A stretch of 64,000 nt of DNA, taken from assembly GCA_007126095.1 (NCBI GenBank), contig SLBZ01000087.1, positions 28,921-92,920 of the forward strand, read 5' to 3'. Each line of letters opens with the position of its first letter. Position 1 is the first letter of the stretch. The position numbers and the translations under genes are program-made. Of the stretch, positions 55,384-63,463 are shown in pieces. Origin of the DNA: Aquisalimonas sp. (GTDB lineage: Bacteria > Pseudomonadota > Gammaproteobacteria > Nitrococcales > Aquisalimonadaceae). Below the pieces are notes generated by a model that ran no database searches, was not told the DNA's origin, and saw nothing but the letters and a program-made list of their open reading frames with translations.

Positions 55384-55707
55384 TCAGACCGTGAAGCTCT
55401 CTCCGCAGCCGCACATGTCCTTGACATTGGGGTTGCGGAAATCGAACCGCTGATTCAGCCCTTCACGCACAAAATCCACCTCCGTTCCTTCCAGGAACGG
55501 CAGACTCTTGCGGCTGATGACGATGCGGATCCCGTGCTGCTCGAAGGTCACGTCGTTGTCGTTGACGCCTTCGGCATAGTCGACGGTGTACATGAACCCG
55601 GAGCACCCGCTGGTGCGAACACCAAGACGCACACTGTGGTCATGGCCTTCCTTTGCGGCGTGCGCTTTGACATGCCGGGCAGCGGCTTCGGTCAGTTGGA
55701 TCGCCAT
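55384..55707 (-). CDS. iscA: Iron-sulfur cluster assembly protein IscA/HesB type
   Basis: A 107-residue A-type carrier. The three cluster Cys are in VRTSGCSGF (Cys35) and in the C-terminal CGCGESFTV. It delivers Fe-S clusters to apoproteins. It follows the IscU-like gene by 17 bases, completing an iscS-iscU-iscA set without iscR, hscBA or fdx in this window. Confidence 0.92.
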   Translation of the reverse strand: MAIQLTEAAARHVKAHAAKEGHDHSVRLGVRTSGCSGFMYTVDYAEGVNDNDVTFEQHGIRIVISRKSLPFLEGTEVDFVREGLNQRFDFRNPNVKDMCGCGESFTV

Positions 55708-55724: not shown

Positions 55725-56105
55725 TCAAGTTTGCCGTTCCAGATCCGCCAGCGCCCGCCGGAAAGCGTCCTCCACGACGAGCACATCGGACACGGCCTGG
55801 GCCGGAAGTTCCAGCGCCTCGCAGATACCCGGCGCCGTCCAGCCTGCCGCGCTGCCGGGTGTGCTCCCGAACACGGCTTCCGACAGCCAGCTGGCCGCCG
55901 CGATGGCCTCGGGTGGCCCGAGGCAGAGCCACGCCACCGGACCCAACCGAAGATCCGAGGTGGCGGCAATCTGGAACTCCACTTCAATTCCTGATTGTAC
56001 ATGACCCGCGCAACCCCTGCCGATCAGCCCGGTCGCGGCATCCAGCCGCCCGGCGTTACGCGGCGCCTCGAAATGCGCCCGGGCCAGTTCCGGCAACGGC
56101 ATCAT
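55725..56105 (-). CDS. IscU/NifU-like scaffold with a degenerate third Cys
   Basis: A 126-residue IscU/NifU_N-like protein. By alignment of pattern, Cys32 (GRGCAGHV) and Cys61 (WLCLGPPEAIAAAS) stand for IscU Cys37 and Cys63, but the third ligand, at IHCSILAEDA in IscU, is here VSDVLVVEDA with no Cys; Cys95 lies elsewhere. The Asp near the first Cys is also changed. A normal scaffold role with three Cys ligands is therefore doubtful. Its start overlaps the iscS stop, and iscA follows at 17 bases. The two ATG codons at 56105 and 56102 are adjacent. Confidence 0.7.
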   Translation of the reverse strand: MMPLPELARAHFEAPRNAGRLDAATGLIGRGCAGHVQSGIEVEFQIAATSDLRLGPVAWLCLGPPEAIAAASWLSEAVFGSTPGSAAGWTAPGICEALELPAQAVSDVLVVEDAFRRALADLERQT

Positions 56106-57364
56106 CTGCTCTCCTTTGACGCGCCAGCGGGCTGCGGGTTCCGCCGATACAGCGCGTCCAGCGACTGCCCGTCGCGGTAGCGCGGCCACGCGGGCGACAG
56201 GGCGCGGAGCCGCTGGATGGATGCCCCCACGCGGGCCACTGCGGCATCCACCGATTCTCGGGTGCTCCAGCGGCCCAGGCTGAACCGCAGCGTGCTGTGT
56301 GCGAGCGCGTCGGGAACCCCCATGGCGCGCAGTACGTGTGAGGCAGCCTGGTCGGAAGAGCTGCAGGCGGACCCCGCCGAGATGCCCAGCCCGTCCAGAT
56401 CCGCCTGCAGCGCATCGCCGTTGACGCAGCCAATGCTCACGTTGAGTACGTGGGGGCTGCCGTTCGCCTGACCGTTGACCTGAACCGCCCCCAGGTCCAC
56501 CAGCTGCTCGCGCAGATGATCCCGCAGACCGCGCAACCGGGCCGGCTCGTGCTCCATGTCCGCCATGGTCAGCGCGCACGCCTCGCCCATGCCGGCGATC
56601 AGATGCGGCGCCAGGGTGCCGGGCCGCACTCCGTCCTGCTGTCCGCCGCCGTGGAACAGCGGCGACAATCGCACTCGCGGTCGCCGCCGCACCCACAACG
56701 CACCCACGCCTTTGGGGCCGTAGATCTTGTGGCCCGACAGCGCGAGCAGATCGATGCCCCAGGCATCGGCGCACAGTGGCAATCGGCCGGCGCTCTGCGC
56801 TGCATCCACATGGAAACGGGCGGGGTGTTGCCGAAGGCGTTCGCCGATGGCGGCAATGTCGTTCACGGCACCGGTTTCGTTGTTCACGTGCATCAGGGAG
56901 ACCAGCACGGTGTCGTCCCGCAGCGCCTCCCCCACCTGCTCCACGGTTACGGCGCCATCGGGGCCCGGTGGCAACAGCGTGACCTCCATGCCTTCCCGTT
57001 CGAGCTGCTCCAGCGCACCCAGCACCGCGGCATGCTCGGTGCGCGCCGAAATCACGTGGTTACCCCGGCCGCGCTCCCGGGCGAAACGGCCGACGCCGAG
57101 AACCGCCAGGTTGTCGGATTCGGTGGCGCCGGAGGTCCAGACCACCCCGTCCGCCGGCGCCCCAATCAGCGCCCCCACCTGGCCGGCGGCGGCGTCGATC
57201 AGGTGCGCGGCGTCCACGCCCCAGCGGTGCCGGGACGACGGATTGCCGAACACCCCGTCGATCTGCAGGCAAGCCGCCATACGCGCCGCCACCTCCGGCG
57301 CCACCGGCGTGGTTGCGGCGTAGTCCAGATAGAGCAGTTCGGCGTCACCGGGCACTGTCGTCAT
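56102..57364 (-). CDS. iscS: Cysteine desulfurase IscS type
   Basis: A 420-residue PLP enzyme. It takes sulfur from cysteine for Fe-S clusters and thio-tRNA. The His that stacks on PLP is in RTEHAAV, the Schiff-base Lys in [11 protein letters not shown] and the sulfur-carrying Cys in [14 protein letters not shown]. The long C-terminal tail (about 40 residues beyond the usual end) is Arg-rich. ATG at 57364 is inside cysE (20-base overlap), so both are coupled. Confidence 0.93.
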
Positions 57365-58154
57365 CGCCCCCCGACTCCGCGGCCTCCTCCTTCGACACGT
57401 CCGGGCCGCCGTTGCCGTTCTCGAACCGGCTGCAGTCCAGATCGGGAATGCGCGCATCCGGGAGCCTCCCACCCAGATCGCGGACGGCCTGACACATCTC
57501 CACCAGACGCTCGTCGGTCACGTGGATGTGGTCCAGGATCGAGTTGATCGCCTGGCTGACCGGGTCAGGCATGTCCGTGGTGCCGTAGGCGTCGAAACCG
57601 ATCTTGCGCGCCGTGGCCTCACGCTGGGGCGTTTTCTCGGCCCGCTGTCCGGCGACACGGGCGGGAATCCCGACCATGGTGGCACCCTCCGGCACGTCCT
57701 TGATGACAACGGCATTGGACCCCACCCGCGCCCCGGTGGACACGGTGACGGGCCCCAGCACCTTGGCCCCGGCCCCGACCACCACGTCGCTCTCCAGAGT
57801 GGGATGCCGTTTCCCCCGTTCCAGGCTGGTACCACCCAAGGTAACGCCATGATAAAGGGTGCAGTCATCGCCGATCTCGGCGGTCTCACCAATGACCACG
57901 CCCATGCCGTGGTCGATGAAGAAACGCCGGCCTATCCGCGCCCCCGGGTGAATCTCGACGCCGGTGGTCCAGCGGGCGAACAGGGAGATGAACCGCGCCA
58001 GCCAGTACAGCCGCCAGTTCCACAGACGGTGGCAGAAGCGGTGCCACAGCAGGGCGTGCAGCCCGGGGTAGCAGGTCAGCACGTCGAACGCGTTGCGGGC
58101 CGCTGGGTCACGGTCCCTGACGCACCGGATATCCTCTCGAATACGATTGAACAT
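57345..58154 (-). CDS. cysE: Serine O-acetyltransferase
   Basis: A 269-residue hexapeptide-repeat acetyltransferase that makes O-acetylserine, the carbon precursor of cysteine. The left-handed helix begins at [22 protein letters not shown] (the His/Asp pair is catalytic) and continues through [19 protein letters not shown] and [22 protein letters not shown]. It is longer than EpsC types because of a C-terminal extension of about 80 residues. An SD (AAGGA) precedes the ATG by about eight bases. The leader holds a Cys-rich mini-ORF, and iscS follows directly. Confidence 0.93.
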
Positions 58155-58212
58155 TGGGGTGTCCTTGTCCGGAAAGGCAGGCTTCAGGCTCGATGCAGGC
58201 TGCGGGCAATAC

Positions 58213-58281
58213 TCAGTCGCAGCAGCGACAACAGCAGCAACAGTGGCGTTGGCAACAGAGCCTGTGGAGGTGTCCGGTCAT
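58213..58281 (-). CDS. Cysteine-codon-rich leader peptide (candidate cysteine attenuator)
   Basis: A 22-codon ORF, ATG 58281-58279 and TGA 58215-58213, ending 58 bases before cysE. Residues 9, 10, 14-18, 20 and 21 are Cys: nine of 22, with five in a row, and both TGT and TGC codons are used. It starts M-T-G-H and ends with Asp. No good SD is present. Possible promoter boxes on the minus strand, TTGTGC (58320-58315) and TAACAT (58296-58291) 18 bp apart, put the start at or within a few bases of the ATG, so it may be leaderless or nearly so. Ribosomes lacking Cys-tRNA would stall in it. Downstream are three AGCCTG repeats and a weak hairpin over the cysE SD. Confidence 0.6.
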
Positions 58282-58329
58282 GGTGGCTTCATGTTAGCGA
58301 ACTCGGCGCCAGACGCACAATCGTCCGAT

Positions 58330-59079
58330 TCACTCACCGCGCCGCCGACGCAAAGTACCGTCCAGCCCTTTCTCCACGTGGGCAAGAACGCCTCTGAGAA
58401 TCTGCATCTCGTTGTGGTCGGGACGCGCACGCCCGAAGAACAGCCGCAACCGCCGCATAAGCGCCCTCGGGTTGGCAGGATCGAGAAAATCGATCCGCTG
58501 CAGCACCCGCTCCAGGTGCGCATAGAAGCGCTCCATGTCATCGGCGGTCGCCGGTGGCCACTCCGAGGTGGGCTGTTCCGGCGCGACATCGGCCAGCCCC
58601 GCCATTCTCAACTCGTAGGCCATGACCTGCACCGATGCAGCGATGTTCAGCGAACTGTAGTCGGGATTCGCGGGAATCTGGACCAGGCGGTGACAGCGAT
58701 CCAGCTCCTCGTTGGTCAGCCCCACCCGCTCGCGCCCGAACAGAACCGCCACGGGCCGCTGCTCTGCTTCCGCGATCAGCCGGGGAGCCGACTCCCGCGG
58801 CGTCTCCACCGGACACGACAATGTCCGTTGCCGCGCCGACAGGCCCACCACCAGCGTCGTCCCCACCAGTGCGTCGTCCAGGGTCTCGTGCACCTGTGCG
58901 CGGTCCAGGATGTCATCGGCTCCCGATGCCATGGCGGTGGCATCCGGGTGCGGAAACTGGCGGGGGGTGACCAGGTGGAGGGCGTCCAGACCCATGGTCT
59001 TGATGGCCCGGGCCGCCGCCCCGACGTTCGCCCCCAGCGAGGGCTCCACCAGTACCATACGGACGTGTTCCGGGCGCAT
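58330..59079 (-). CDS. trmJ: tRNA (cytidine/uridine-2'-O-) methyltransferase TrmJ
   Basis: A 249-residue SPOUT methyltransferase that modifies position 32 of tRNAs. The trefoil knot holds EPSLGANVGAAARAIKTMGL, VAVLFGRERVGLTNEEL and the conserved LNIAASVQVMAYEL. A C-terminal helical extension (about 165-249) is typical. ATG at 59079. It is divergent from suhB, the conserved arrangement, and lies upstream of the cysE leader. Confidence 0.93.
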   Translation of the reverse strand: MRPEHVRMVLVEPSLGANVGAAARAIKTMGLDALHLVTPRQFPHPDATAMASGADDILDRAQVHETLDDALVGTTLVVGLSARQRTLSCPVETPRESAPRLIAEAEQRPVAVLFGRERVGLTNEELDRCHRLVQIPANPDYSSLNIAASVQVMAYELRMAGLADVAPEQPTSEWPPATADDMERFYAHLERVLQRIDFLDPANPRALMRRLRLFFGRARPDHNEMQILRGVLAHVEKGLDGTLRRRRGE

Positions 59080-59232
59080 CAGGGCTCCTGCTGCTTGCGT
59101 GCTTCGGATCGCTTGTTTTCGGGAGTGGCAGTGTACCGCCGTTGCCGCCAGAAGTAAGGCCAAGTTCAACCGGCGGTCCAGACCTGTTATTCTCCCGCTC
59201 CACTTCCCAGGTCGACGGACTCAGACACCTCT

Positions 59233-63274: not shown

Positions 63275-63463
63275 GTGGCCACTTGGGAAATGATTCTGGC
63301 GGGAATCGTCGCCGTGCTCGTCACCATGTGGTTCATGCCCGGTATCCGGGAGAGCATGAAGCGGAACAAGGAGAATGCCGATCAGCCAAAGGACTGGCGA
63401 GGCCTGCTGTTTCCCCTGCTGTTCGTGGTGCTGTTCGTGCTGCTGCTGATCAGCATGGTGTAA
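63275..63463 (+). CDS. Small two-helix membrane protein, 62 residues
   Basis: Two hydrophobic segments (about 7-22 and 42-61) separated by a charged loop (RESMKRNKENADQPKDW). The GTG at 63275 has AGGAG nine bases upstream; a TTG three codons earlier is also possible. Family unknown. A good 9-base hairpin follows. Its stand-alone position and strong SD make it likely to be expressed. Confidence 0.6.
   Translation: MATWEMILAGIVAVLVTMWFMPGIRESMKRNKENADQPKDWRGLLFPLLFVVLFVLLLISMV

Follow-up and report, generated by a model that had tools for sequence, protein, structure and literature searches.

The 64,000-nucleotide stretch of DNA analysed here (the window) carries, on its minus strand, a cysE gene that lies downstream from trmJ and overlaps the start of an iscS-type cysteine desulfurase gene by about 20 nt (57345-57364), followed by genes for an IscU-like and an IscA-like protein (Table 1). 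Within the source genome, the next best match for cysE reached just 7.4e-4. The overlap bears out the coupling of cysE to iscS claimed in a preliminary description of the region. The trmJ-cysE gap contains a 22-codon ORF with nine Cys codons (positions 9, 10, 14-18, 20 and 21), which ends 58 bases ahead of the cysE ATG (58154). Upstream from this ORF, -35-like and -10-like hexamers are separated by 18 nt, the latter lying 9 nt from the leader ATG. On all of these points, including the five consecutive Cys codons (14-18), the sequence reads as the preliminary description had it. The name iscU given there to the gene after iscS had to be abandoned: its product is a degenerate IscU-like protein (43 bits against 192.4).

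Table 1. Features of the trmJ-cysE-iscS region, in the direction of transcription (window coordinates)
Feature	Coordinates	Strand	Basis
trmJ, upstream neighbour, not part of the leader	58330..59169 (putative start)	-	TIGR00050, 234 bits (cut-off 167)
-35-like hexamer TTGTGC	58315..58320	-	Read directly; putative promoter element
-10-like hexamer TAACAT, 9 nt upstream of leader ATG	58291..58296	-	Read directly
Cys-codon leader ORF, candidate leaderless	58213..58281	-	Read from sequence; counterparts in the order; UGU bias
C-over-G spacer, leader stop to cysE, candidate Rho-loading region	58155..58212	-	C>G skew; putative function
TCCGGACAAGGACA with cysE Shine-Dalgarno AAGGA	58160..58173	-	Alignment; identical in 5/5 genus members
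cysE, serine O-acetyltransferase	57345..58154	-	TIGR01172, 251 bits (cut-off 210.65)
iscS-type cysteine desulfurase, start overlapping cysE end	56102..57364	-	PRK14012, 453.6 bits (below cut-off 548)
Degenerate IscU-like protein without the three ligand Cys columns	55725..56105	-	TIGR01999, 43 bits (cut-off 192.4)
iscA-like gene	55384..55707	-	TIGR02011, 137.5 bits (cut-off 150.6); passes broader TIGR00049

The clustering of Cys codons had been held to be very unlikely by chance. The leader ranks first by Cys fraction among the 640 window ORFs of 12-60 amino acids, and none of 54,829 ORFs from Markov-simulated sequence had 9 Cys at 40%; however, three of the 640 ORFs have at least 9 Cys, and two have at least 30% Cys. 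Since the window has a second ORF of comparable length with 9 Cys, Cys composition alone is not decisive. That second ORF (plus strand, 63375-63449; 9 Cys in 24 codons) runs over a CTG-rich stretch and resembles a chance frame. Among the 658 ATG-initiated ORFs of 8-40 codons in the window, six have a -10 score of at least 4.5 and 15 have at least 15% Cys, the leader being the only one to combine both. In the source genome, the pattern CC-xxx-CC matched 54 times and its reverse 32 times, so that further Cys leaders may exist there.

Fourteen genomes in four genera, all of them with cysE, were compared within the family; the order search covered 54 genomes, 52 with cysE, and the upstream DNA of 50 was compared (G047 and G049 left out). 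Four loci (L062-L065) are repeats of order genomes and were excluded from the counts; L087 begins inside cysE. NCBI taxonomy places the genus Aquisalimonas in the Ectothiorhodospiraceae. Within the family, a leader ORF with 2-9 Cys codons lies 117-130 nt before cysE in every genome of the window's genus (5/5), of genus g2 (3/3) and of genus g4 (2/2), and in none of the four g3 genomes, where the trmJ-cysE gap is only 44-59 nt. A lack of conservation in close relatives had been named beforehand as evidence that would speak against the leader; instead, ORF, Cys codons and promoter spacing are kept in 5/5 genomes of the genus and 10/14 of the family. In the order as a whole, the trmJ-cysE gap measures at least 100 nt in 26 of the 50 loci (the other 24 are without such a gap), and a short ORF with one to nine Cys codons is present in 23 of the 26, its ATG 117-134 nt upstream of cysE in 18 of the 23. 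The 27 order loci without a leader are those of g3 (4/4), f3-g9 (9/9) and f4-g15 (12/12 fetched), plus L031 and L051; three loci (L040, L042 and L051) lack a leader, by our reading, although their gaps measure 100 nt or more. From this distribution, the leader looks ancient in the order and may have been lost, together with its promoter, in several lineages.

The 23 leaders, 13 of which are outside the family, were first chosen partly by their Cys content; the choice was then repeated blind to Cys, taking in each locus the ORF with the best -10 box before an ATG. This rule selected a Cys-containing ORF in 21 of the 26 order loci, all 21 passing ORFs containing Cys, and let through 3 of 14 loci outside the order; the pooled Cys content of the picks was 17.5% in the order vs 6.1% outside. 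Beyond the family, most leaders contain just one or two Cys codons, and several stand at the chance count (L048: 1 vs 1.19 expected). Pairwise comparison of the genus members gives an identity of 0.47 for the spacer, rising to 0.74 at the window's Cys codons (0.66 over the remaining leader) and to 0.91 at the ribosome binding site (RBS). The four genus members compared keep Leu-Cys-Cys and the Cys at positions 9, 10, 14, 18 and 21, and both peptide sequence and Cys count drift among genera. Peptide conservation in the genus was not above a column-shuffle null (p 0.53), and a coding-potential test on four genus leaders was not significant. Conservation across the order decides that the leader ORF is real, where composition could not, and we regard a conserved functional leader at this site as highly probable. 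As a separate observation, the genus-wide identity of TCCGGACAAGGACA around the cysE Shine-Dalgarno sequence exceeds what that sequence alone needs.

In 21 of the 26 order loci whose gap measures 100 nt or more, a -10 box scoring at least 4.5 lies 5-10 nt before the leader ATG; of 1,108 other ATGs at these loci, 1.6% have such a box within 4-12 nt. The -10 boxes of the L034 and L037 leaders are weak. In the -35 region, GATTGT is invariant across the five aligned genus members; since a generic sigma-70 scan finds no promoter at the window leader, its -35 element is considered weak. The short distance from -10 box to ATG, 6-10 nt in the 21 leaders selected by the Cys-blind rule, suggests that the leader is probably leaderless, with a 5' end predicted from the -10 spacing. 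Conservation and promoter spacing together support the initial view of an attenuator-type Cys-codon leader, probably leaderless, upstream of cysE.

Codon usage provided a further line of evidence. Cys accounts for 16.9% of leader codons in frame 0 vs 4.0% and 2.7% in the other frames, and the leaders contain 76 Cys codons vs 21.4 expected. UGU makes up 50 of these 76, against 23 of 156 in cysE and trmJ (Fisher p 2e-14); the remaining 245 NNY codons in these leaders end in T in 59 cases (p 9e-11). The bias also holds when set against local base composition (p 1e-5). These p values overstate independence because the rows share ancestry. UGU predominates within the family (33/54) and outside it (17/22); at least one UGU is found in 22 of 23 leaders, and averaged by genus the UGU fraction reaches 0.5 or more in 11 of 12. 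Generally, a single tRNA-Cys (GCA) decodes both Cys codons, UGU by wobble. The UGU bias points to codon reading, and we consider it likely that the leader senses Cys decoding.

We propose, with a probability of roughly 0.75, that the leader is part of a cysteine-responsive attenuator, perhaps a Rho-dependent one. Transcription would initiate from the promoter in the trmJ-cysE gap, at the leader ATG or about 3 nt from it as judged from the -10 spacing, and ribosomes translating the 22 codons would have to read through Cys codons biased towards UGU, the less used of the two. When cysteinyl-tRNA is ample, these ribosomes would finish and leave, exposing the C-rich spacer, and the transcript would be cut short, most likely by Rho. 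When cysteinyl-tRNA is scarce, a ribosome held on the Cys codons would shield the spacer and RNA polymerase would proceed into cysE-iscS. In 16 of the 23 leaders, no more than 5 codons separate the last Cys codon from the stop. A fall in charged tRNA-Cys would in this manner yield more serine acetyltransferase, the entry step to cysteine. The UGU bias lends the model a simple codon-level prediction.

The spacer has more C than G in 22 of the 23 leader loci (mean C-G +0.142). The corresponding means are -0.010 in 49 gaps without a leader (p 1.3e-7 vs leader spacers), 0.007 in 37 further upstream segments taken from the window (p 2e-6) and -0.052 in the stretch preceding the leader in the same loci. 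Over 78 nt, the size used for CruR according to the part of that report available to us (PMC9426467), leader loci average 0.141 vs 0.044 in 129 loci without a leader (p 2.4e-8). At the window leader the excess is modest, at 0.09 for the spacer and 0.12 for the 78-nt stretch. A C>G bubble of the kind associated with Rho-dependent leader attenuators is found at these loci; taken over the order it speaks for Rho, though less clearly so in the window. A 58-base spacer is short for a Rho site. Seven of the 37 ordinary segments have a higher C>G value than the window leader, which weakens the case for Rho; we put it forward as the output step tentatively, at somewhat less than even odds. The block of Rho contemplated in the preliminary description fits the bubble of the spacer but is conjectural.

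Control could instead be exerted on translation, mycobacterial style, with a ribosome stalled on the Cys codons opening a pairing that hides the cysE start and transcription unaffected. The poly-Cys and probably leaderless anatomy is that of the mycobacterial ORFs, and the M. smegmatis ORFs regulate downstream translation according to the accessible part of a review (PMC9031893). Folds of L002, L004 and L005 pair a leader CCGGA with UCCGG inside the cysE start, and a ribosome on the last Cys codon is predicted to make RBS opening easier in 8 of the 23 loci and harder in 1 (mean 7.9 vs 8.4); relative to a ribosome at the stop, it is easier in 8 and harder in 4. However, with the ribosome on the first Cys codon the predictions split into 8 easier and 4 harder, and the ten family loci, which have the most Cys codons, show 2 easier, 1 harder and 7 unchanged for the last one. 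The window itself hardly moves, its predicted opening energy being 7.3 for free RNA, 6.6 with a ribosome at the first Cys codon and 7.3 at the last or at the stop. Moreover, L003 keeps the leader without the ACCGGA start, and a scan for conserved RNA structure gave mean fold z-scores near zero (-0.46, 0.02 and -0.21 for three segments), mean stability not exceeding that of shuffled sequence, with isolated strong values beyond the family. Exposure of the cysE Shine-Dalgarno sequence by a stalled ribosome, as first suggested, thus gains from the last-Cys predictions but is weak at best, and we rate translational control as unlikely. Lower still stands classical attenuation, in which the leader would decide whether an antiterminator or an intrinsic terminator hairpin forms ahead of cysE. 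Stable hairpins do occur past the last Cys codon in L029, L030, L036, L037 and L053 (one to three Cys; z -2.0 to -3.2); the window region, however, contains no stem followed by a T run, that is, no intrinsic terminator (other loci were only folded), and the z-scores of the ten family loci range from -0.7 to 1.7, making this an improbable scheme. Rfam yielded two chance-level matches in the region, neither overlapping the leader.

Were the nascent Cys-rich peptide a metal or redox sensor, ribosome behaviour would be set by the peptide and not by the supply of tRNA. CruR, a CXXC system responding to copper, links a uORF Cys motif to Rho-dependent termination in the portion of the report at hand (PMC9426467), and CC and CxC motifs are present in the leaders. 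Yet Cys number and spacing vary, down to a single Cys in six of the 23 leaders (L027, L030, L036, L039, L048 and L052), and a preference for UGU over UGC is unneeded by a sensor of this type, whose involvement we hold to be improbable. The ORF might also be a chance frame in a GC-rich gap, its promoter real and its Cys codons idle. Other window ORFs reach at least 9 Cys with no evident function, and leaders outside the family have few Cys; but conservation, frame specificity and UGU bias leave very little room for chance. The odds are equally slight that the ORF encodes a working small Cys-rich protein co-expressed with cysE, as the Cys residues kept within the genus might suggest; the drift of peptide sequence and Cys count between genera and the non-significant column-shuffle test both argue against it. 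Cysteine-responsive attenuation through codon reading is the explanation we favour.

Elsewhere in the class, iscR usually lies between cysE and iscS; it is absent from the window's cysE-iscS. An IscR-like N-terminal motif follows cysE in 85 of 102 class loci elsewhere vs 0 of 28 order loci. The cysE-iscS gap is 350-800 nt in 71 of the 84 loci from the rest of the class in which iscS was found (of 101). In the order, iscS abuts or overlaps cysE both in leader loci (15/15 where found, of 16) and in loci without a leader (5/5 where found, of 12). Proteins resembling IscR at better than 1e-35 are encoded in 1/5 genomes of the window's genus, 0/3 of g2, 0/4 of g3 and 2/2 of g4. Leader and iscR absence do not correspond one to one, g3 being without both. 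Degeneration of the IscU-like protein is seen in the window as well as in three aligned genus members (comparison with one ordinary IscU, residues obtained for 3 of 8 loci), and an IscU above the curated cut-off was found in none of the 54 order genomes and in 1 of 14 control genomes. The preliminary description had a single sensor govern both the supply of cysteine and the use of sulfur for Fe-S. This claim is weakened because the IscU-like protein is without the three ligand Cys columns; cysE and iscS are still tightly linked. One could imagine that, in the order, the cysE-isc operon lost iscR, its IscU scaffold degenerated and control passed to a leaderless leader weighted towards UGU, so that an Fe-S-reading transcription factor would have been replaced by a codon-speed sensor of tRNA-Cys acting via Rho, with UGU chosen as the more sensitive (wobble) codon. 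This scenario is speculative and, taken as a whole, doubtful; if true, it suggests a way for a leader to replace a repressor in an operon.

Polycysteine leaderless short ORFs are said to have been described in mycobacteria by Canestrari in 2020; in this type, the downstream start is reportedly hidden and becomes exposed upon stalling, a feature for which PMC13236596 gives a citation. In tnaC, a leader ribosome guards a C-rich stretch from Rho, and tryptophan is sensed via an arrest peptide. Actinobacterial (mycobacterial) Cys leaders also appear in the available part of Shell 2015 (PMC4633059). As far as the accessible portions of the mycobacterial literature go, those ORFs and the present one are alike in being short and, in the present case probably, leaderless, with clustered Cys codons upstream of cysteine-related genes: here, too, a short ORF of this kind precedes a cysteine-metabolism operon. 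They differ in that the present leader belongs to another class of bacteria, precedes cysE-iscS and is weakly indicated to unmask a Shine-Dalgarno sequence; these portions make no mention of the UGU bias seen here. In the part of Seliverstov 2005 (PMC1262725) available to us, leaders of actinobacterial cys operons resemble ours in that runs of Cys lie close to the stop of the leader, a terminator hairpin is lacking and polyY motifs precede the first gene. Its authors suggest Rho while deeming the prediction weak and the motifs unconserved, whereas the C>G skew recurs in 22/23 loci here. The uORFC-8-2 motif found before cysS in Rhodobacterales (PMC8632094, seen in part) is likewise a proteobacterial uORF, in which positions 14-15 or thereabouts are occupied by two Cys codons. 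It has an intrinsic terminator, two stems and a dominance of UGC, unlike the present leader, which precedes cysE and is followed by no intrinsic terminator with a U run. With CruR, judging from the accessible part (PMC9426467), the leader would share a ribosome that guards a C-rich stretch from Rho, a role that is conjectural here; CruR senses copper via an arrest peptide, whereas the signal here should be tRNA charging. A conserved arrest peptide, as in tnaC and CruR, was not seen in the leaders compared. No Cys leader of Gammaproteobacteria figured among the matches listed from the open-licence PMC literature, outside which most subscription journals lie. The leader is the same kind of device as known Cys leaders; it occurs in another class, precedes a different operon and may differ in its output step. 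Known Cys leaders being those of Actinobacteria and, before cysS, of Rhodobacterales, it would represent, if true, the same leaderless design in another class.

Other genes were scanned for similar leaders. None was found before cysS in 12 correctly placed family loci, before cysK/M in 23 family loci or before trmJ in 30 order loci. One match in the cysS and cysK/M scan (L221) was rejected as an artefact; the L221 and L205 loci are incomplete and hence misplaced. Cys-rich ORFs were noticed inside trmJ in L026, L040, L044, L053, L057, L070, L071 and L098. A further 60 class loci comprised 36 with a gap below 100 nt and 24 with longer gaps; a scan of these 24 gave no ORF that was Cys-rich by our criterion. 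Among loci outside the order, a Cys-rich ORF without a -10 box occurs in L146 and L158, and the symbiont locus L073 encodes MRGLCDCF behind a -10-like TAGAAT, 54 nt before cysE, perhaps by chance.
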